Positions 29,011 through 56,359 of a stretch of DNA of 64,000 bases are shown piece after piece; position 1 is the stretch's first letter, and each line of letters begins with the position of its first letter. The position numbers and the translations under genes were made by a program. The DNA comes from Modestobacter sp. VKM Ac-2977. Lineage in GTDB: Bacteria; Actinomycetota; Actinomycetes; Mycobacteriales; Geodermatophilaceae. Under the pieces are notes generated by a model. The model searched no databases. It saw only the letters and a list, made by a program, of their open reading frames with translations, and was not told the DNA's origin. The stretch covers positions 218,060 to 282,059 of the forward strand of contig NZ_JAPVBQ010000003.1 in the NCBI RefSeq assembly GCF_026968045.1. Reading direction: 5' to 3'.

Positions 29011-30528
29011 GTGAGTGCGACACCGACGGGCCCGTCCGTCCCGGCCGATCGGCTGGGGGGCGGGCCCGAGGTGTCTGCGCCGCCGGGGCCGGACCGCATC
29101 GTGCCGTCCTGGACCGACCCGGTGGCGGTCCAGGCCAGCGAGGCGGTGGGCGGTCCCTGGGGTCGGCACGCCGTCACCGGGCGCGCCCGCTTCTGGACGC
29201 CGCTGCGGGTGTGCCTGCTGTTCACCGTGGTGGTGCTCGGGCTGGCCTGGGCCAAGCAGGCGCCGTGCGCCACCGGCAACTGGACGGGCAGCAAGCAGTA
29301 CACCCACTTCTGCTACAGCGACCCCGTCGCGCTGTTCTTCACCCATGGGATCGGCGACGGGCAGGTGCCCTACCTCGACTCCGCCGTCGAGTACCCGGTG
29401 CTCACCGGTGCGCTGATGCAGCTCGCCGCGGTGGTCGCGCGAGGCTGGGACGGGCTGGCGGCGGGCGTCTCCACCGTGCCGGTGGCGAGCTTCTACGTCG
29501 TCACCTGTCTGCTGCTGTCGGCACTGGCGCTCCTGGTCACCCGCGGCGTGCTGGGGCTGGCCGGCCGCCGGCCCTGGGACGCCGCGATGGTCGCGCTGTC
29601 GCCGCTGCTGCTGGTGCACGCCTTCACCAACTGGGACCTGCTGGCCATCGCCCTGACCACGCTCGGGATGTGGGCCTGGGCACGCCGGCACCCGGCGCTC
29701 GCCGGGGTGCTGATCGGGCTGGGGGTCGCGGCGAAGCTCTACCCGGTGATCGTCCTCGGCGTGCTCTTCGTGCTGTGCCTGCGCGCCGGCCGGCTGCGGG
29801 CATGGCTGTCGGCGATCGTGGCCGCCGGGCTGGCCTGGCTGGCGGTGAACCTGCCCGTCGCCCTCGCCGCGCCGGAGAACTGGGCCCGGTTCTTCACCTT
29901 CAGCGACGTCCGGCCGGCGAACCCGGAGAGCGTCTGGGCGATCGCCCTGGACCTGACCGGCGACCGGATCCTGGACGGTCCGCTGGCCGAGGGTCAGACG
30001 CCGTCGGTGCTCAACGCCACCGTCGCGGTCGTGCTGCTGCTGTCGGCCGCGGCCGTGGCCTGGCTGGCCCTGGCGGCCCCGCTGCGCCCCCGGCTGCCCC
30101 AGCTGGCGTTCCTGCTGGTCGCGGCCTTCCTGCTGCTGAACAAGGTGTGGAGCCCGCAGTTCTCGCTGTGGTTGCTGCCGCTGGCCGTGCTGGCGCGACC
30201 GCGGTGGCGCTCGCTGCTGCTCTGGCAGGCCACCGAGGTGCTGGTCTGGGTGATGACCATGCTCTATTACCTGGGGGCGGACGAGAACGGTGTGGACGTC
30301 GAGTGGTTCTACCTCGCCGTGGTGGTGCGCGACGTCGCCGTCCTCGTCCTGATGGCGCTGGTCGTCCGGGAGGTGTGGTCACCGGACCGGGACCTGGTGC
30401 GGCGCAGCTGGCCGGGCACCGACGACCCCGCCGGCGGCGTCCTGGACCAGGCCCCCGACCGGTTCACGTTGCGGCGCACGCCTCAGCCGGCGAGCGCTCC
30501 GCGCAGCAGGGCGATCTCCTCGGCGTGA
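29011..30528 (+). CDS. GT87-family polyprenol-phosphate-mannose-type glycosyltransferase (putative)
   Basis: The 505-residue integral membrane protein has about 10 TM helices and a GT-C glycosyltransferase pattern: a large first external loop beginning after TM1 ([25 protein letters not shown]), an acidic motif in that loop, [13 protein letters not shown], and [15 protein letters not shown], typical of GT87/PimE-like alpha-mannosyltransferases. It is the counterpart of Rv0051, 25 nt after ponA. GTG start. Its 3' end overlaps the convergent endonuclease gene by 46 nt. Confidence 0.8.
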
Positions 30529-31298
30529 CCTGCGGTGTCCCCGGGGGTCTCCAGGACGACGGGGGCGCCGGCGGCGCGGGCCACGCCCACCAGCAGCTCC
30601 AGCGGGATCTCCCCGGCGGTCAGCGGCGCGTGGCGGTCGCGACCGGAGCCGGCGGGGTCGCGGCTGTTGTTCAGGTGCACCAGGTCGACCCGGCCGGTGA
30701 TCGCCCGGACGTCGTCCACCACCCGGGTCAGGTCCCAGCCCGCGGCCCAGGCGTGGCAGGTGTCCAGCACGAAGCCCGCGCCGAACTCCCCCACGGCCTC
30801 CCACAACCGGGCGACGGCGTCGAGCTCGCGGGCCATCGCGTTGTCCCCGCCGGCGGTGTTCTCGATGAGCACCGGGACGCCGAAGCCGCCCTCGTCGGCC
30901 TGCCGGGCGAAGGTCTTGCGCCAGTTGTCGACCCCGGCCGACGGGTCGTCCGCCGCCAGCACGTGCCCGCCGTGCACGACCATGCCCTGGGCCCCGACGG
31001 CGGCCGACGCCTGGGCGTGCTGGCCGAGCAGCTTGCGGCTGGGGATCCGGATCCGGTTGTTCGTCGAGGCGACGTTGAGCACGTAGGGGGCGTGCACGAA
31101 GACGGCGACGTCGGAGCCGAGCAGCGCCTCGGCGTCCGGGCGCGGCCTCGGCGCCTTCCAGCCCTGGGGATCGGCGAGGAACACCTGCACCGCGTCGGCG
31201 TCCAGCTCGGCGGCGCGGGCCAGCGGACCGCCGTCGGCCAGCTCGTTCTCCTCGGTCAGGCCCGGTCCGACGTGCACGCCGATCAGCTGCTCAGCCAC
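30483..31298 (-). CDS. nfo: Endonuclease IV (AP endonuclease family 2)
   Basis: Metal-dependent AP endonuclease of base-excision repair. The 271 residues hold the Nfo metal ligands: [59 protein letters not shown] and VVLETPG. The GTG at 31298 is chosen as first in-frame start after TAGTCT (31306-31311, minus strand), 7 nt upstream; no ribosome binding site is present, so a leaderless mRNA is likely. It is inserted between GT87 and rpsF relative to mycobacteria. Confidence 0.92.
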
Positions 31299-31364
31299 GC
31301 GGAGGAGACTAGGCCTCCCCGCTGCGCGGCACATCGGGGAGAACGCACTGGTAGCCTGTCCGGT

Positions 31365-31401
31365 GCGCGTCCTCCCCTGCTCCGAGCAGGTCCGGGCGCG
31401 C
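31365..31401 (+). promoter_or_regulatory. Candidate S6:S18-type leader structure upstream of rpsF
   Basis: A possible promoter (TAGCCT at 31352-31357) would give a 100-nt rpsF leader. Its first part folds into GCGCG/CGCGC (31365-31369 with 31397-31401), an internal loop containing CCG, and an upper stem CCTGCT/AGCAGG (31376-31381 with 31385-31390). Leaders with a CCG internal loop are known to bind the S6:S18 complex and repress rpsF operons. The match is by eye only. Confidence 0.4.
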
Positions 31402-31469
31402 GACGCATGTACGACCCTCCTGCTGCAGACACCCTGCGGCCGCTGAGACCAGAGGAGGTGGGGTTCTCC

Positions 31470-31757
31470 GTGCGTAACTACGAACTGATGATCATCCTCG
31501 ACCCTGAGCTCGAGGAGCGCACCATCGCTCCCAGCCTGGATCGTTTCCTGACCGTCGTCACCAACTCCGGTGGCACCGTCAAGACCGAGATCTGGGGCCG
31601 CCGCCGGCTGGCCTACGAGATCGACAAGAAGGCCGAGGGCATCTACGCCATCGTCGACATCCAGGCCGAGCCGGCCGCCGTCGCCGAGCTGGACCGTCAG
31701 CTGAACCTCAACGAGTCCATCCTGCGCACCAAGCTGATGCGCCCCGAGGCTCACTGA
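31470..31757 (+). CDS. rpsF: 30S ribosomal protein S6
   Basis: The 95-residue S6 has the usual start [18 protein letters not shown], the central [18 protein letters not shown] and [16 protein letters not shown]. The GTG at 31470 is preceded by AGAGGAGGTG at 31451-31460, a strong ribosome binding site; longer in-frame forms would lose it. First gene of rpsF-ssb-rpsR-rplI. Confidence 0.97.
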
Positions 31758-31759
31758 CC

Positions 31760-32272
31760 ATGGCCGGCGAGACCGTCATCACCGTCATCGGGAACCTGAC
31801 GGCCGACCCGGAGCTGCGGTTCACCCCGTCCGGCGCCGCCGTCGCCAACTTCACCGTCGCCTCGACGCCCCGCACCTTCGACCGTCAGTCGCAGGAGTGG
31901 AAGGACGGCGAAGCGCTGTTCCTCCGCTGCAACGTCTGGCGCCAGGCGGCGGAGAACGTCGCCGAGTCGCTCACCCGCGGTTCGCGGGTCATCGTGTCGG
32001 GCCGGCTGAAGCAGCGGTCCTTCGACACGAAGGAAGGCGAGAAGCGCACCGTCATCGAGCTGGAGGTCGACGAGATCGGCCCCTCTCTGCGGTACGCCAC
32101 CGCCAAGGTCACCCGCGCTGCGCGCAGCGAGGGTGGCGGTGGCGGCGGCGGGTTCGGCGGTGGCGGCGGCAACAGCGGTGGCAGCGGTGGCGGTGGTGGT
32201 GGCTTCTCCGGTGGCGGAGCGAGCGACCCCTGGTCCACCCCGCCGGCGTCGTCCGACGAACCGCCTTTCTGA
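31760..32272 (+). CDS. ssb: Single-stranded DNA-binding protein
   Basis: The 170-residue SSB has an OB fold ([38 protein letters not shown]), a Gly/Ser-rich linker (about 122-155) and the acidic tip SSDEPPF, a variant of the DDDIPF tail that recruits repair and replication proteins. ATG two bases after the rpsF stop. Confidence 0.97.
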
Positions 32273-32304
32273 TCCCCCCTCTGTACTGATCTCTGGAGAA
32301 CCCA

Positions 32305-32541
32305 GTGCCCAAGCCTCCCCCCCGCAAGATCAAGAAGAAGGTCTGCCAGTTCTGCAAGGACAAGGCGACCTACATCGACTACAAGGACACGACCCTGCTG
32401 CGGAAGTTCATCTCCGACCGCGGCAAGATCCGTGCCCGCCGCGTCAGCGGCAACTGCAGCCAGCACCAGCGTGACGTCGCCGTGGCCGTGAAGAACAGCC
32501 GCGAGATGGCACTGCTGCCCTACACCTCCACGGCGCGCTGA
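32305..32541 (+). CDS. rpsR: 30S ribosomal protein S18
   Basis: The 78-residue S18 contains the rRNA-binding core [20 protein letters not shown] and [20 protein letters not shown], ending [10 protein letters not shown]. Cysteines CQFC plus C51 and H54 form a possible zinc-binding set, so this is the zinc-dependent (C+) type. A C- paralogue under Zur control is not in the window. GTG start at 32305. Confidence 0.96.
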
Positions 32542-32543
32542 TC

Positions 32544-32999
32544 ATGAGCACCATGAAGCTGATCCTCACGCAGGAGGTCACCGGTCTCGGGTCCTCCGGC
32601 GACACCGTCGAGGTCAAGGGCGGGTACGCCCGCAACTACCTCCTGCCCCGCGGGCTGGCCATGCTGGCCACCCGAGGTGCCGAGAAGCAGGTCAACAGCC
32701 TGCGCCGGGCGCGCGCTGCGCGCGACGTGCGTTCGCTCGAGGAGGCCCAGGCGGTCGCCGGTCAGCTGTCGCAGCTGACCGTCACGCTTCCGGCCCGCTC
32801 CGGTGACGGTGGCCGTCTCTTCGGCCGCATCACCACCGCCGACGTCGCCGCCGCGGTGACCGCGGCCGGTGGCCCGGAGCTCGACCGTCGCCGGATCGAG
32901 CTGCCCAGCAGCATCAAGAGCCTCGGCACCCACACCGTCACGGTGCGGGTCCACCCCGAGGTGTCCGTGCCGGTGACCGTGGACGTCGTCGCCGGCTGA
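32544..32999 (+). CDS. rplI: 50S ribosomal protein L9
   Basis: The 151-residue L9 has the N-terminal signature MKLILTQEVTGLGSSGDTVE and GYARNYLLPRGLA, a long connecting helix, and the C-terminal rRNA-binding domain. The true start may be the ATG at 32553 (MKLIL, the family start); the ATG at 32544 adds three residues. Neither has a clear ribosome binding site; coupling with the rpsR stop 3 nt away is likely. Confidence 0.95.
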   Translation: MSTMKLILTQEVTGLGSSGDTVEVKGGYARNYLLPRGLAMLATRGAEKQVNSLRRARAARDVRSLEEAQAVAGQLSQLTVTLPARSGDGGRLFGRITTADVAAAVTAAGGPELDRRRIELPSSIKSLGTHTVTVRVHPEVSVPVTVDVVAG

Positions 33000-33023
33000 T
33001 CGGGCCGCTTTCCACAGCACTGC

Positions 33024-33063
33024 CCACGAGGGGCGTCGGACTCCGGTCCGGCGCCCCTCGTGG
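33024..33063 (+). terminator. Terminator of the rpsF-ssb-rpsR-rplI operon
   Basis: ccacgaggggcg (33024-33035) pairs with cgcccctcgtgg (33052-33063). The inner CGGAC/GTCCG and a T-G wobble extend the stem to about 18 bp around a 4-nt loop. It begins 25 nt after the rplI stop. Confidence 0.88.
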
Positions 33064-33388
33064 CGTTCCCGGGGCCTGCTGGGCGTCCTCCCGTGTCGAC
33101 ACGGGCGCCGGCCCTCCGTGGACGGCAGGTGAACGGCGCCACCGACCCGTGCGGCACCGCGCAGCACGGCCGAGCCTCGGGGACGGCGCCCCTGCCGTCG
33201 ACCCGTTACGCGTGTGACCTGCGGGGATCCGCCGACACGCCCGGGCGGCGTGTTCTGCGACGAGTTGCGGGATTTCTTCCGTCCACACCCCGGGACAGGC
33301 TCCGGCGCAGGTGACGAGGGGGTGGCGGGGACGCGACGTCCGCGGGTCCACCACGGTCTCCACACGGTGACCGCCCCTGTCCACCGAC

Positions 33389-33397
33389 TTGTCCACA
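33389..33397 (+). promoter_or_regulatory. Exact DnaA box upstream of dnaB
   Basis: TTGTCCACA matches the actinobacterial DnaA-box consensus exactly and sits in the small palindrome ACTTG-TCCA-CAAGT. A weaker box (CCGTCCACA) is at 33280-33288. The 33064-33562 spacer holds no gene. Besides this box it contains a -10-like TAACGT (33452-33457), a hairpin and an SOS box. Confidence 0.6.
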
Positions 33398-33464
33398 AGT
33401 TGTGCAGATCGGCGTGCACAGCGGTGTTGGACGTGCCCCCTCCTGGCTTCCTAACGTCACCCCC

Positions 33465-33505
33465 AGCTACCGCCGGGCACGAACTGTCGGCGCCCGGTGG
33501 TAGCT
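33465..33505 (+). promoter_or_regulatory. Stem-loop in the dnaB 5' leader
   Basis: agctaccgccgggc (33465-33478) pairs with gcccggtggtagct (33492-33505): 13 Watson-Crick pairs and one G-U wobble, 13-nt loop. If TAACGT at 33452-33457 is the -10, transcription would begin at about 33464 and the hairpin would form the very 5' end of the mRNA, 57 nt ahead of the dnaB start. Confidence 0.65.
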
Positions 33506-33510
33506 GTTGT

Positions 33511-33526
33511 CCGAACGCACGTTCGA
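33511..33526. promoter_or_regulatory. LexA (SOS) box upstream of dnaB
   Basis: CCGAACGCACGTTCGA matches the actinobacterial SOS box TCGAAC-N4-GTTCGA at 11 of 12 positions. It lies 36 nt before the dnaB start, in the putative leader, where bound LexA would block elongation or a downstream promoter. Confidence 0.65.
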
Positions 33527-33562
33527 GCGGCAGCAGGAGCAGGGGACGAGGAGAACATCAGC

Positions 33563-34933
33563 GTGGCGGTCGTCGACGACATCAGCAGGCCGAGGGTCAC
33601 GGCTCCGGAGTACGACCGACAGCCCCCTCAGGACGTCGCTGCCGAGCAGTCGGTCCTGGGCGGCATGCTGATGAGCAAGGACGCGATCGCCGACGTGGTC
33701 GAGGTCCTGGCGGGCCCGGACTTCTACCGCCCGGCCCACCAGATCGTCTTCGACGTCATCCTCGACCTGTACGGCCGGGGTGAGCCCGCCGACGCCATCA
33801 CCGTCGCCGCGGAGCTGAACCGCACCGACCAGCTGTCGAAGATGGGGGGCGCGGTCTACCTGCACACGCTCATCGCCTCCACCCCGACCGCGGCGAACGC
33901 CGGGTACTACGCGGCGATCGTCGCGGAGCAGGCGGTGCTGCGGCGGCTGGTCGAGGCCGGCACCCGGGTCGTCCAGCTCGGCTACGGCGCAGCCGGTGGG
34001 AAGGGCGATGTCGACGACATCGTCGACCGCGCCCAGCAGGAGATCTACGACGTCACCGAGAAGCGGATGAGCGAGGACTACTCCCGCCTCGCCGACGTCC
34101 TGCAGCCGACGATGGACGAGCTCGACGCGATCGCCTCCCGGGGTGGCACGGCGCGGGGCGTCCCCACCGGCATCCGTGACCTCGACGAGCTCACCAACGG
34201 CCTGCAGGCCGGCCAGATGGTGGTCATCGCCGCCCGCCCCGGTGTCGGCAAGAGCACGCTGGGGCTGGACATCGCCCGCTCGGCCACCGTGAAGCACCAC
34301 ATGCCGGCGGCGATCTTCTCGCTCGAGATGAGCAAGCACGAGATCACCATGCGTCTGCTGTCGGCCGAGGCGAAGGTGCCGCTGCACCACATGCGTGCCG
34401 GCACGCTGTCGGACGAGGACTGGTCGAAGCTCGCCCGCCGGATGGGCGAGATCGCCGACGCCCCGCTCTACATCGACGACTCCCCCAACATGACGATGAT
34501 GGAGATCCGGGCCAAGGCGCGGCGGCTCAAGCAGCGCAACGACCTCAAGCTCATCGTCATCGACTACCTGCAGCTGATGACGTCGGGCAAGAAGGTGGAG
34601 AGCCGTCAGCAGGAGGTCTCGGAGTTCTCCCGTGCGCTGAAGCTGCTGGCCAAGGAGCTCGAGCTGCCGGTGATCGCGATGAGCCAGCTGAACCGTGGCT
34701 CGGAGCAGCGTCAGGACAAGAAGCCGATGCTCTCCGACCTCCGTGAGTCCGGCTCGATCGAGCAGGACGCCGACATGGTGATGATGATCCACCGCGAGGA
34801 CATGTACGAGAAGGAGTCCCCGCGGGCCGGCGAGGCCGACATCATGCTGGTCAAGCACCGCAACGGCCCCACCGCGAACGTCACCGTCGCGTTCCAGGGT
34901 CACTACAGCCGCTTCGTCGACATGGCCAACTGA
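33563..34933 (+). CDS. dnaB: Replicative DNA helicase DnaB
   Basis: Hexameric 5'-3' fork helicase, 456 residues. The N-terminal primase-interacting domain (PPQDVAAEQSVLGGMLMSKD) is followed by the RecA-like motor: Walker A ARPGVGKST, FSLEMSKHEITMRLL, Walker B LIVIDYLQLM, and the C-terminal LRESGSIEQDADMVMMIHRE. The gene is continuous, without the intein found in several mycobacterial dnaB genes. The GTG at 33563 has GAGGAGA 8 nt upstream; an in-frame GTG at 33497 lies inside the leader hairpin. Confidence 0.97.
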   Translation: MAVVDDISRPRVTAPEYDRQPPQDVAAEQSVLGGMLMSKDAIADVVEVLAGPDFYRPAHQIVFDVILDLYGRGEPADAITVAAELNRTDQLSKMGGAVYLHTLIASTPTAANAGYYAAIVAEQAVLRRLVEAGTRVVQLGYGAAGGKGDVDDIVDRAQQEIYDVTEKRMSEDYSRLADVLQPTMDELDAIASRGGTARGVPTGIRDLDELTNGLQAGQMVVIAARPGVGKSTLGLDIARSATVKHHMPAAIFSLEMSKHEITMRLLSAEAKVPLHHMRAGTLSDEDWSKLARRMGEIADAPLYIDDSPNMTMMEIRAKARRLKQRNDLKLIVIDYLQLMTSGKKVESRQQEVSEFSRALKLLAKELELPVIAMSQLNRGSEQRQDKKPMLSDLRESGSIEQDADMVMMIHREDMYEKESPRAGEADIMLVKHRNGPTANVTVAFQGHYSRFVDMAN

Positions 34934-34938
34934 TCCCC

Positions 34939-35469
34939 GTGCCCGAACTGGTCGAGCCGACTCCGCGGTTGCACGTCGCCTGGCTCGCCGCGCACCGCGA
35001 GTGGGGCGCCGGGGTGCCTGAGGACGGCGCCGGCCTGCGGCCCGAGGACGACGTCGAGACGCCTGAGGGCTTCGCGGCCTGGGTCGAACGGCTGCGCGAG
35101 GAGTCGGACCCGGAGCGGCCCATCGCCGAGGGGCGCGTGCACTGCACCTACTGGTGGATCGTCGAGGGCGACACCGTGCTGGGGGCCATCGCGCTGCGCC
35201 ACCAGCTCAACGACTTCCTGCTCCGGGCGGGCGGTCACATCGGGTACGGCATCCGCCCTTCGGCCCGCCGGCGTGGCCTGGCCACCTGGGCGCTGGGCCA
35301 GGTGCTGAACCGGGCCCGTGCGATGGGTCTGGATCAGGTGCTCATCACCTGCGACGAGGGCAACCAGGCCTCGGCTCGGGTGATCGAGCGGGCGGGTGGT
35401 CTCCTGGAGGACATCCGGGACACCGAGCTGGGCCGGGCACGGCGGTACTGGGTCCCGCTCCCCCGCTGA
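34939..35469 (+). CDS. GNAT family N-acetyltransferase
   Basis: The 176-residue protein shows a GNAT fold of the RimJ/RimL-like type: WWIVEGDTVLGAIALRH, the acetyl-CoA loop IGYGIRPSARRRGLATWAL (R/Q-x-x-G-x-A form) and NQASARVIERAGG. The substrate is unknown. Its GTG is 5 nt after the dnaB stop, so it is probably co-transcribed with dnaB, an association I cannot explain functionally. Confidence 0.85.
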   Translation: MPELVEPTPRLHVAWLAAHREWGAGVPEDGAGLRPEDDVETPEGFAAWVERLREESDPERPIAEGRVHCTYWWIVEGDTVLGAIALRHQLNDFLLRAGGHIGYGIRPSARRRGLATWALGQVLNRARAMGLDQVLITCDEGNQASARVIERAGGLLEDIRDTELGRARRYWVPLPR

Positions 35470-35573
35470 CCGCCGTACACCCGATCGGGGATACGAGACC
35501 CGGGCGACTCAACGATCGGCACCCTGCTGCCGATGCTCCAGGCAACGCTCGATCCACGACCTGGAGGTCACCT

Positions 35574-36164
35574 GTGCTCTCGCTCCTCTCCGGCCTGCTC
35601 GCCAAGGCCGTCTCCGCCTCGCTGGCCGCCAAGGTGGCCGCCGGCGCGACCGCCGTCGTCGTGGCCGGTGGCGGCGCTGCCGTGACCACCCAGGTGGTCA
35701 CCGCCGCTGCCGAGCCGACGACGTCGGAGGTCAGCACCACGGAGAACACCGACGTCGCCGACCCCGCGGACGTCGCAGTCCCGACCGAGGCCCCGGAGAC
35801 CACGGAGCCGACCCCCGCCCCCGAGGCGCCGGAGACCGAGGAGCCCACGGTCGACCCGACCGCCGAGCCGACGCCGGAGCCGGCGCCGGAGGAGACCGAG
35901 GAGCCCACGGCCCCCGAGGTGCCGGCCGAGCCGTCGGCCCCGGTGAACCACGGACAGGTCGTCTCGTCGGTCGCGAAGTCCACCTTCGCGACGGGCCGGG
36001 AGCACGGCCAGGCCGTCTCCTCCGCCGCACGCAACAAGGCGAGCAAGAACGAGCCCGCTCCCGCCCCCGAGGCTGACAGTGCCGAGGCCGTCGAGGGCGC
36101 CAGCACCGCTGACGCCACCGGCAACGGCAACGGCAACGGCAACGGCCGGGGTGGCCGGGGCTGA
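35574..36164 (+). CDS. Secreted or membrane-anchored Pro/Glu/Thr-rich protein
   Basis: I do not recognise a family. The 196-residue protein starts with a long non-polar segment (VLSLLSGLLAKAVSASLAAKV, then ATAVVVAGGGAAVTT) that can act as a signal or anchor. An acidic low-complexity stretch (about 50-125) follows with repeats of EETEEPT type, then a small basic segment, and the C-terminus GNGNGNGNGRGGRG. GTG start at 35574 with CTGGAGGT 5 nt upstream. It precedes a lipoprotein nuclease gene by 107 nt in the same orientation. Confidence 0.75.
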   Translation: MLSLLSGLLAKAVSASLAAKVAAGATAVVVAGGGAAVTTQVVTAAAEPTTSEVSTTENTDVADPADVAVPTEAPETTEPTPAPEAPETEEPTVDPTAEPTPEPAPEETEEPTAPEVPAEPSAPVNHGQVVSSVAKSTFATGREHGQAVSSAARNKASKNEPAPAPEADSAEAVEGASTADATGNGNGNGNGRGGRG

Positions 36165-47170: not shown

Positions 47171-47260
47171 GGGGTTCTCCTGGGGGTCGACGACCGGTCC
47201 GCCCGACGCTACGGGCGCCCACCGACAGCCAGGCGCAGCGACATGTGCTGCGATCAGCGC

Positions 47261-53030: not shown

Positions 53031-56000
53031 ACAGGCCGCGGACGTCGTCGGCGGTCAACGCGCCCGAGGCGAGTGCGCCGTCGTCGACGACGCGGGAGAA
53101 CAGGGCCTGCTTGCGGGCCTTGAGCTCCATCACCTTCTCCTCGATGGTGCCGACGGCGACCAGCCGGTAGACCATCACCGTCTTGTCCTGGCCGATCCGG
53201 TGCGCCCGGTCGACGGCCTGGGCCTCGCTCGCCGGGTTCCACCACGGGTCGAGGACGAAGACGTAGTCGGCCTCGGTGAGGGTGAGTCCGAAGCCGCCGG
53301 CCTTGAGGCTGATCAGGAACACCGGGGCGCTGCCGGTGCGGAACTCCTCGATCCGGGCGTCCCGGTCCCGGGTCCGCCCGTCCAGGTAGACCCAGTCGAT
53401 GCCCTCGGCGGTCAGCCGGTCGCGGATGCTGCCCAGGAACCGGGTGAACTGGCTGAAGACCAGCACCCGGTGCTCCTCGGCGACCACCTCGCGCAGGTGG
53501 TCGAGGAACGCGTCGGCCTTGCTGGCGCGGACGTCGGCGTACGCCGGGTCGATCAGCGCCGGGTCCAGGCTGAGCTGCCGCAGCAGGGTGAGTGACCGGA
53601 AGATGGTCATCCGGTTCTTCGACATGTCCTCGACCAGCCCGAGGACCTTGCTCCGCTCCCGCTGCAGGTGGGTCTGGTACAGCTTCTCGTGCCGCGGGTT
53701 CAGCACCACCTCGAGCACCTGCTCCTGCTTGGGTGGCAGCTCCGCGGCGACCAGCTCCTTGGTCCGGCGGCGCACCAGCGGGCGGATCCGGCGGCGCAGC
53801 AGGGCCAGCTTCTCCGCGTCGCCGTCCCGCTCGATCGGGATCCGGTAGAACTCGGTGAACCGCTCCGGGTCGGGGAAGAGGCCGGGCGCGACGATCGACA
53901 TCAGCGCCCACAGGTCCATGACGCTGTTCTCCAGCGGCGTCCCGGTGAGCGCCAGTTTCACCGGCGCCGGCAGCATCCGGGCGACCTGGTAGGTGCGGGC
54001 CTGGTGGTTCTTCACGAACTGCGCCTCGTCGAGCACCAGCCCGCGCCAGGACAGCGACGTCCAGGAGTCGGCGTCGATCCGGAACAGTGCGTAGGAGGTG
54101 ACGACGACGTGCGCGCCGGCCACCCGGCCGCGCAGCGAGGTGCCCGCCTTGCGTTCGGTCTCGTCGACGGCGACCACCCGCAGACCCGGGGCGAACCGGG
54201 CCGCCTCCCGGGTCCAGGTTGAGACGACGCTGGTGGGCGCCACCACCAGCACCGGTGCGGCGTCCAGGTCGCCGGCCTCGTGCGCTCGGCAGAGCAGGGC
54301 GAGGGTCTGCAGCGTCTTGCCCAGCCCCATGTCGTCGGCGAGCACCCCGCCGAGCCGGTGGTCCCAGAGGAAGGCCAGCCAGCCGTAGCCCTCCCGCTGG
54401 TAGGGCCGCAGCTCCGCGGCCAGCCCGGCCGGTGGTGGGGGCGGCTCAGCCGTCTCGACGTCGATCAGGCCACGCACCTCGCGGGTCCAGCGGTCGCTCT
54501 GCTCGGTGACCACCCCCAGCCCCAGCAGTTGCTCCCACAGACCGGCGGAGAAGCGGCTGACCTGCACCTCGTCGCCGGGCAGGTCGCGCAGCTCGCGGGC
54601 CTCCTCGATCAGCAGCCGCAACTGCTCGAACTCCGGGCGCTGCAGGGAGAACCAGGTGCCGCTGATCAGCGCCAGCCGGGTGCGGCCGGCGGCCAGTGCG
54701 GAGAACAGCGTCGCGAACGGCACGTGCTGGCCGTCCATGGTCACCGAGATACCGAGGTCGAACCAGTCGGACTCCCGGCTGTCCCGCGCGGTGAAGCTGA
54801 TCTGCGGCGCCGAGGTGGTCTGCCGGTAGGACGTCGGGGTGCCCACCACGGTCACGTCGACGTCGGGGTCGGCGCGCAGGGCCGGGAGCACCTCGGTGGT
54901 GAACTCCAGCGCCTCCATGCCGGCGAGCTCGACCCGCTCGGCCAGCCGGCGCTCCGGCGTCCACAGTTCCGGCAGTCCGCCGACCGGGCCGGGCAGCGCC
55001 TCGACCAACTGCTCCTCGGCGGCCGGGTCGCGGCCATCGGCCGGGCCGGCCGTGGTCGACAGGCCGAACGACCGGTCGCCGTACCCCACCGACCAGGCCA
55101 TGGTGACCGTCGCGTCACCGGGGTAGGTCACCTCGGCGGCCAGCCTCGGGGGTGCGACGTCGGGCAGCTCCACCGAGCCGTCGGCCGAGATCACCGGGAC
55201 GGCGCGTCGCAGCCCCGGGTAGAAGTCGCGCTGGAAGCGGTCGACGTCGCCGGCCGGGATGCCGATCACCCCGCCCCGGGCCACCAGGCCGGCCAGCACC
55301 GGGGGCACCGGGGAGTCCAGCCGCGCGAGCACCAGCCCCGGCGCGCCCTCGGGCGCCTCGTCGCGGGCCGGACCGTCGACGGTGACCCCGTGCGGGGGCA
55401 TGCCGAGGAAGGAGAGCGCCGCCGGGTCGATCGCCCGCCCCGCCACCCGCAGCACGGCGGACAGCTCGGTGCGGTCGCCACTGTCGCGCAGGTCGACGGC
55501 CACGTCCGCCTCGCCCTCGGCGAGCACCACCGGACGCGGCTGGCGGTCGGCGGTCACCAGGGGGACGCCGTCGGCCACCGCCTCGGCCAGCAGCCGCCAG
55601 AGCCCGGGGCCGAACTCGTGCAGGTACACGTCGACCGGGGCGTACGAGTAGAACTGGTTGCGCGCCGCCTGGTGGGTGGCGTGCAGCGCGCGCATCGCCG
55701 CCACGTGCGCCGGGTCCCAGCCGGACCGGCTGTTGTCGTACTGCAGCTGACGCCAGGAGATCCCGCTGCGCACCCAGTGCCCCCGCTTGCCCGGGACCAC
55801 CGGCCGCAGCCGCACCAGCCGCTGCAGGGTGCCCGGCGCGCCGACCGAGCTCCGACCCCGCCCGGGCGCCTGCTCGACCAGCTCGAACTGCAGCCCGATC
55901 GGCACCGCCGTGCGCGGTCGGCGGTCGGCCGCCGCGGCCACCAGCTCCTCGAGTTCGGCCTCCCAGCCGGCCGCCACCGGGGACGCCTTCAGGTTCGAGC

Positions 56001-56283
56001 GCAGCGACAGCAGGACGGCGACCGCGTGCTTGCAGTCGTCGCCCACCGGGCAGGTGCACGCACCCGCCCAGCCCACCCGGCCGCCGTCGGTGCGCACCAC
56101 CGTCGTCCGGTAGGGCTCGGCGGCGCCGCCCTGGACCAGACCGGTCAGCCGGCGTGCGTCGTCGGCCAGCCGGAGGTCGAGGACGCCGCGGGCCACGTAG
56201 CGGCGGGCACGGTCGAGCACCTCGGGGCCGACGGCGTCGGCCAACGCCGCATCGGTGACCATCTCCCGCCAGTCCCCGAGCAC
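53023..56283 (-). CDS. SWIM zinc finger SNF2-family helicase (RapA-like)
   Basis: The 1086-residue protein has a SWIM zinc finger near the N-terminus ([18 protein letters not shown], CxCx5CxH), a large unassigned middle region, and a C-terminal SNF2 motor: Walker [22 protein letters not shown] box [20 protein letters not shown], and the helicase-C motifs [15 protein letters not shown] and [15 protein letters not shown]. It is the standard actinobacterial SWIM-SNF2 protein, probably acting on DNA-protein or RNA polymerase complexes. An ATG at 56262 is an alternative start. Confidence 0.94.
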
Positions 56284-56359
56284 CCGATCAGGCTACGGCG
56301 GTGCACCGACAGAGCTGCCCGGGTCGCGGTCACCGGTGCTCCGGCGCGAAGATCACTGC

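Follow-up and report, generated by a model that had tools for sequence, protein, structure and literature searches.

The stretch analysed here (the window, 64 kb of a genome of 4.31 Mb in 16 contigs) carries dnaB, the gene of the replicative DNA helicase, in line with ssb and rplI. Features of the dnaB upstream region are collected in Table 1. Among the dnaB genes retrieved, the closest, from Modestobacter caceresii, shows 99% protein identity. The inverted repeat that follows rplI is perhaps the terminator of the operon, a role that would leave dnaB with its own promoters only; a terminator scan of positions 32950-33620 found no T-run terminator. A dnaA match runs on the minus strand from left of the window to position 1316, with rpmH near 2075 and dnaN left of the window (about -2330 to -1068); about 32 kb separate dnaB from dnaA. 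An earlier reading of the sequence alone (the sequence-only reading) spoke of oriC boxes in the window; the DnaA boxes at 1440-1733 are part of the dnaA-rpmH spacer. The origin itself (oriC) lies to the left of the window between dnaA and dnaN, in a spacer (about -1067 to -430) that holds three DnaA boxes with one mismatch and zero exact copies.

Table 1. Genes and sequence elements at the dnaB locus (window positions; bits are information content across the family alignment)
Feature	Position	Strand	Remarks
ssb	31760-32272		in line with rplI and dnaB
rplI (ribosomal protein L9), gene 5' of dnaB	32544..32999	+	ORF; NCBIfam TIGR00158 L9
Inverted repeat, 18 bp	33024..33063	+	25 bp 3' of rplI; arms 94% complementary, 4 nt between
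TCTCCACA, conserved partial DnaA box	33357..33364	+	1.78 bits mean, 39 loci; 2-mismatch box at 33356
CTGTCCACC, weak DnaA box	33377..33385	+	2 mismatches; inside conserved GTCCACCGAC block
TTGTCCACA, exact DnaA box	33389..33397	+	first half of double box; 1.84 bits
TTGTGCAGA, second DnaA box	33400..33408	+	2 mismatches; 2 bp after first
GTGCACAG, partly conserved	33414..33421	+	deleted in 4/39 loci
P1 -35 TTGGAC	33427..33432	+	1.81 bits; GTGGAC or CTGGAC in some relatives
P1 -10 TAACGT	33452..33457	+	1.80 bits; inferred start near 33464
Hairpin at inferred P1 RNA 5' end	33465..33505	+	right arm and loop coincide with P2 motif
P2 upstream (-26) element TGTCGG, PafBC-type	33485..33490	+	1.85 bits; TGTCRG-N10-TA in 39/39 loci
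P2 -10 TAGCTG	33501..33506	+	TAG 1.84 bits; last T of TANNNT missing; inferred start near 33513
LexA box CCGAACGCACGTTCGA	33511..33526	+	TCGAAC-N4-GTTCGA at 11/12 positions
dnaB, replicative DNA helicase	33563..34933	+	GTG start; TIGR00665 549.6 bits

The 300 bp 5' of dnaB were aligned for 39 family loci, that is, the window and 38 Geodermatophilaceae relatives (L005-L042). Information content peaks at the DnaA module, the P1 -35 and -10 elements, TGTCGG and TAG, and is lower on the LexA half-sites; several of the stretches between peaks stand at 0.75 to 0.83 bits and others at 1.0 to 1.6. For chance estimates, the 450 bp upstream of dnaB were compared with dinucleotide shuffles. The PafBC motif TGTCRG-N10-TA was found in 39/39 family loci (0.17 expected), the exact DnaA box in 32 (0.10 expected) and a LexA box with at most one mismatch in 16 (0.03 expected), counts that are not independent because the loci are related. 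On the opposite strand, the exact DnaA box and the PafBC motif each occurred in 0/39 loci, and 117 kb of control sequence just upstream of the same loci held no exact DnaA box, two PafBC motifs and one LexA box. The DnaA and LexA boxes picked out by the sequence-only reading are thus kept in related genomes well above chance.

Two wider samples were also scored. Among 42 more distant loci (L043-L084), the exact DnaA box precedes dnaB in 26 (0.03 expected; none on the opposite strand), the PafBC motif in 13 (0.07 expected; two on the opposite strand) and a LexA box with at most one mismatch in 20 (0.03 expected). The class sample comprises 60 of 108 genomes from 22 families, hand-picked rather than random, with related loci within families and several genomes each from families f2, f4, f57, f58 and f59; here 42 genomes have a double DnaA box before dnaB and 18 lack one (0.05 expected; opposite strand 4/60), the PafBC motif is present in 24 and lacking in 36 (0.50 expected), and a LexA box with at most one mismatch is present in 9 and lacking in 51 (0.00 expected). 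Families with at least one positive genome numbered 16 for the double box, 10 for the PafBC motif and four for the LexA box.

The sequence-only reading was right that TTGTCCACA is the sole exact DnaA box in the 64 kb, but its description of a single box was incomplete, since a second box adjoins the exact one to form a double box. The pair (33389-33408) consists of two same-strand 9-mers within the 2-3 bp spacing by which we define a double box, and a relaxed version, GTCC[AC]CA-2 bp-TTGTGCAGA, is present in 39/39 family loci. High conservation is also found in the TCCACCGAC block (1.76 bits) and in AGTTGTGCAGA, directly after the DnaA box (1.88 bits; both across 39 loci). Genome-wide (4.31 Mb), TTGTCCACA occurs in 9 copies against 10 for a reversed-pattern control, which is no enrichment; the box is therefore notable through its position and conservation, not its count. 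The distance from the start of the DnaA box to the start of the P1 -35 element is 38 bp in 35 family loci and 28 bp in the other four (L016, L019, L033 and L037). Because all four form one clade of the dnaB tree (Blastococcus; support 94/87), the shift from 38 to 28 bp was probably a single event of one helical turn.

Same-strand arrays of DnaA boxes stand before dnaB in L047, L071, L079 and others of L043-L084, with recurring spacings of 11, 45, 53, 56 and 67 bp.

DnaA boxes so close to the origin might instead serve titration or initiator-state control, in the manner of datA or DARS, and stand before dnaB by location alone. The distance of about 32 kb to dnaA, the occurrence of the double box in 42/60 class genomes and the repeated 11, 53, 56 and 67 bp spacings of the arrays, as DnaA assembly might need, would all agree with such a role. 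We nevertheless regard it as unlikely, since boxes with at most one mismatch are mostly oriented with dnaB (plus vs minus strand, 123 vs 6 for L043-L084 and 86 vs 20 for 40 class genomes), since the distance to the -35 element in the family loci is rigidly 38 or 28 bp, and since a DnaA variant of M. tuberculosis with weaker binding at this place under-expresses dnaB according to the accessible text of the report (PMC7738170). Titration of DnaA and regulation of dnaB can, in addition, be compatible with each other.

Downstream of the double box, the TAACGT named as a -10 element by the sequence-only reading is indeed present, and together with TTGGAC it forms the predicted promoter P1, whose elements are separated by 18 or 19 bp in 39/39 family loci. 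A sigma-70 scan returned no promoter in the dnaB upstream region; the 19-nt spacer of P1 exceeds the scanned range of 16-18. A second predicted promoter, P2, has its -10 element 49 bp downstream of that of P1 and resembles the PafBC promoter consensus given for M. tuberculosis in the accessible text (TGTCGG or TGTCAG, 10 nt, then TA-3N-T; PMC8151990). In the window (TGTCGG-N10-TAGCTG, 33485-33506), the last T of this consensus is replaced by G, at a position that varies in relatives. The sequence-only reading, which had named LexA alone as the damage input, overlooked the PafBC-type motif, the better kept of the two (39/39 family loci vs 30/39 for the LexA box).

A strict genome search for TGTCRG-N10-TAGNNT gave 11 sites against 0 for the reversed control, and the dnaB P2 is not among them for want of the final T. 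With one nearby ORF scanned per site (n=11), two clearly belong to repair, recA and a DEDD exonuclease/UvrC-like gene, and mshC is plausible; the other eight ORFs (transporters, an amidase, a dapA-like gene and others) are without a clear repair link, and their sites may be chance occurrences or mark unknown targets. The genome has adjacent genes, in tandem, for candidate PafB and PafC proteins, and a Pup ligase gene is found close to them. For the PafB candidate, matches were obtained to chains 7p5x_AY and 9fnd_X (E about 2e-70, each from an entry that also has a chain named PafC) and to PafBC of 6sj9 (E 3.6e-51), and the adjoining gene has HTH_PafC, WYL and WCX domains.

Further PafBC-type motifs lie on the minus strand of the window at 47206-47227 and 56290-56311; the ORF after the latter (about 54790-56283, minus) gave no NCBIfam match at 1e-10. 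In family f4, whose genomes are large (L179-L183 and L128-L130), TTGTCAG-N10-TA is found about 215-240 bp before the dnaB match in 8/8 genomes, and a LexA box with up to two mismatches is absent from the listed stretch of the same eight.

The hairpin that the sequence-only reading had placed at the start of the mRNA exists and folds strongly (33459-33562, -52.4 kcal/mol vs a shuffle mean of -37.7, z -4.24), but its status as a separate element is not supported; it consists mostly of P2 and a poorly conserved left arm (1.01 bits vs 1.85 for TGTCGG). Pairing exceeded that obtained with shuffled left arms (p <=0.05) in 19/38 leaders, L042 having been dropped for lack of an anchor. More specifically, pairing is nearly perfect in the window and in L005-L009 (Modestobacter) but not in L010 (M. 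muralis), and 1/6 loci named Geodermatophilus and 0/8 Klenkia-clade loci passed the shuffle comparison. An alternative explanation would make the hairpin a selected RNA element, a 5' stabiliser or an attenuator, with the TGTC motif kept as its part. The strength of the fold, the half of the leaders that out-pair their shuffles and an extra insert in L036 that lengthens the pairing speak for this; we judge it quite improbable, given that 5/6 Geodermatophilus and 8/8 Klenkia-clade loci do not out-pair their shuffles though TGTCRG-N10-TA is present in 39/39, that a motif of the same form also precedes recA in this genome, and that an Rfam search of 30000-36000 gave a single match, far under the gathering score. 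We read the hairpin as a lineage feature superimposed on P2, and it may stabilise the P1 RNA in Modestobacter.

Two other roles for the hairpin were set aside. As the main general element it was rejected on the 19/38 result, and as the terminator of rplI it is unlikely, considering the 18-bp inverted repeat directly after rplI (33024-33063) and a scan without T-run terminators across 32950-33620.

Immediately downstream of P2, the LexA box CCGAACGCACGTTCGA was confirmed with the 11 matching positions that the sequence-only reading had counted. Across the genome there are 39 LexA sites with at most one mismatch, against 2 for the reversed control, and six are exact. lexA itself (C9:1034063-1034734) has its own exact box upstream at C9:1033675 (L089). 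Exact boxes are also found at a DNA polymerase IV-type (Y-family) gene (L087), a label that does not imply ImuB, and at a DUF6504 gene situated just ahead of a DnaE-type polymerase gene, the box standing about 0.7 kb from the latter (L086, L178); this polymerase may be either a replicative or an error-prone alpha subunit. The remaining three exact boxes (L085, L088, L090) lack a clear repair neighbour among the scanned ORFs. recA carries both a LexA box, with one mismatch, and a PafBC motif upstream.

At dnaB, the LexA box is present in 30/39 family loci, with one mismatch in the window and two in many Blastococcus, and its sequence would suit a moderate-affinity operator, fitting an essential gene. 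Counted from the inferred starts, it runs from about -2 to +14 at P2 and from about +48 to +63 at P1. The box begins 10 bp after the PafBC TA in 25 of the 39 loci, 9 bp in three and 11 bp in two. In three genomes of family f2, of the same order, it begins 20 bp after the TA; in L052 and L068 the offset is 0 bp, TAGAAC being shared by both motifs. The pattern of whole-turn spacings is based on three lineages. The half-sites carry 1.28 and 1.13 bits, the nine loci without a box included, vs 0.62 for the N4. That this palindrome is an RNA hairpin or a chance occurrence rather than an operator is very doubtful: it does fold as a stem in the leader, it is missing from the Klenkia clade, and its outermost pair is C-G in 13/30 box-bearing loci and T-A in 3/30, a two-sided change compatible with a stem, but the core CGAAC/GTTCG is kept in 29/30 without compensatory changes while the N4 varies, the outermost pair is mismatched in 11/30 (C-A in six, G-A in five; T-G is found in three more), and a LexA box with at most one mismatch precedes dnaB elsewhere (9/60 class genomes and 20/42 other loci).

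The nine loci without the box are eight of the Klenkia clade (one labelled Modestobacter sp. Leaf380) and L042. Loss of lexA as the reason for its absence in Klenkia was rejected, lexA being kept in 4/4 Klenkia genomes tested, with 6-8 exact LexA boxes each. Presence of the box changes four times on the 44-row dnaB tree, which is compatible with loss or with separate gains.

At other places in the genome, two CGTCCACAG-type DnaA-like sites lie upstream of recA, between its LexA box and PafBC motif (L115). DUF222 genes (L097, L102, L103; C1:781393-781468 and C9:880171-880246) have a LexA-like TCGAACGTGTGTACGA and an exact TTGTCCACA at start-to-start distances of 60 and 67 bp, and five of the genome's one-mismatch LexA sites consist of TCGAACGTGTGTACGA or its complement. 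A 2OG-Fe(II) oxygenase gene (PF13532; AlkB-like going by its domain only) has beside it, at C10:1023-1052 (L104), an exact DnaA box and, 5 bp away, a LexA box with one mismatch.

Taken together, we think it probable that dnaB is controlled from an upstream region with two promoters and three inputs, DnaA, PafBC and LexA. The elements, their conservation and spacings, and the genes for LexA, RecA, PafB and PafC are established directly, and from them we infer the start sites, the binding and the sign of each effect. P1 would be a promoter of the housekeeping type, securing expression of the essential helicase. DnaA on the double box, whose two halves have their centres some 60 and 71 bp upstream of the predicted P1 start, would most likely be an activator touching RNA polymerase, and if DnaA activates P1, helicase supply would follow the active initiator. 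P2 would be of the PafBC type: upon damage, single-stranded DNA would activate PafBC, which would then guide the housekeeping polymerase onto P2. With its box across the predicted P2 start, LexA would shut P2 until it is cleaved in a RecA-driven reaction; it may also impede transcripts from P1 as a roadblock. As a result, P1 would give basal helicase, and more helicase would be made once forks stall. The proposal of the sequence-only reading that the helicase is tied to initiator and to DNA damage is broadly supported by conservation and by published mycobacterial data, with the correction that two damage pathways, not one, are indicated. Our confidence in the three-input model is slightly lowered by the outermost LexA pair, whose two-sided change in 13/30 loci is compatible with a stem.

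To our knowledge, the supply of the replicative helicase is seldom viewed as a damage-regulated step. We tentatively extend the model to Actinomycetes, in which dnaB could join the initiation and damage circuits: an ancestral, helically phased DnaA double-box activator to which lineages would add PafBC, LexA or both, with the LexA box placed, in three lineages, at 0, 10 or so, or 20 bp relative to the PafBC -10 element, as if whole turns alone were permitted, such that supply would rise when forks need reloading. If the layout works as read, actinobacteria would tune DnaB by initiator activity and by two separate alarms triggered by single-stranded DNA, with a bearing on fork restart and replication control. 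Natural variants, namely Klenkia without the LexA box and the Blastococcus clade with its 10-bp spacing shift, would allow the individual inputs to be told apart.

Control of dnaB by DnaA and by damage is already known, in pieces, from mycobacteria. Added here are a composite of PafBC and LexA elements at fixed distances, a double box that is widespread, and natural variants of the layout; the joint layout looks new. No report joining DnaA, PafBC and LexA inputs in one dnaB layout was recognised in the literature searched, mostly outside subscription journals, and no mention of dnaB was found in the listed literature on Streptomyces DnaA-box clusters. For S. venezuelae, the word dnaB was not found in the searchable text of a LexA paper, and, according to the accessible text of a report, the PafBC motif seems not to be conserved in this species, as judged from an initial search (PMC9380542).

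The closest parallels, as far as the accessible text of the cited reports goes, are the mycobacterial ones. In M. tuberculosis, the region upstream of dnaB is among the five top DnaA pull-down sites, the homologous five regions are bound by DnaA in M. smegmatis by ChIP-seq, the DnaA I282T variant is the one with weaker binding upstream of dnaB and dnaB under-expression, and Caulobacter is cited as consistent (PMC7738170). M. tuberculosis dnaB is also overexpressed on mitomycin C, with a putative SOS box upstream and partial dependence on PafBC (PMC8151990). DnaA binding upstream of dnaB in both species, and the SOS box and PafBC dependence in M. tuberculosis, thus match the elements predicted here. 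PafBC, activated by single-stranded DNA, lets the housekeeping polymerase use promoters that bear its motif (PMC11804915). The double promoter of Mycobacterium recA, with a PafBC-dependent P1 and a LexA/RecA-controlled P2 (PMC11804915, PMC8223512), resembles dnaB here in placing a PafBC motif and an SOS box on one gene. It differs in two respects: at dnaB here, it is the PafBC-type promoter whose predicted start is overlain by the LexA box, and a separate promoter with a DnaA double box stands further upstream. Family f2 differs from the present locus in its longer LexA/PafBC distance (20 bp vs about 10). Finally, E. coli DnaA favours box pairs 2 or 3 bp apart (PMC11317965, accessible text), and the predicted pair here has the same orientation and the 2-bp distance of the E. 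coli double box; in E. coli the consensus is TTATCCACA, whereas here one box of the two is exact.
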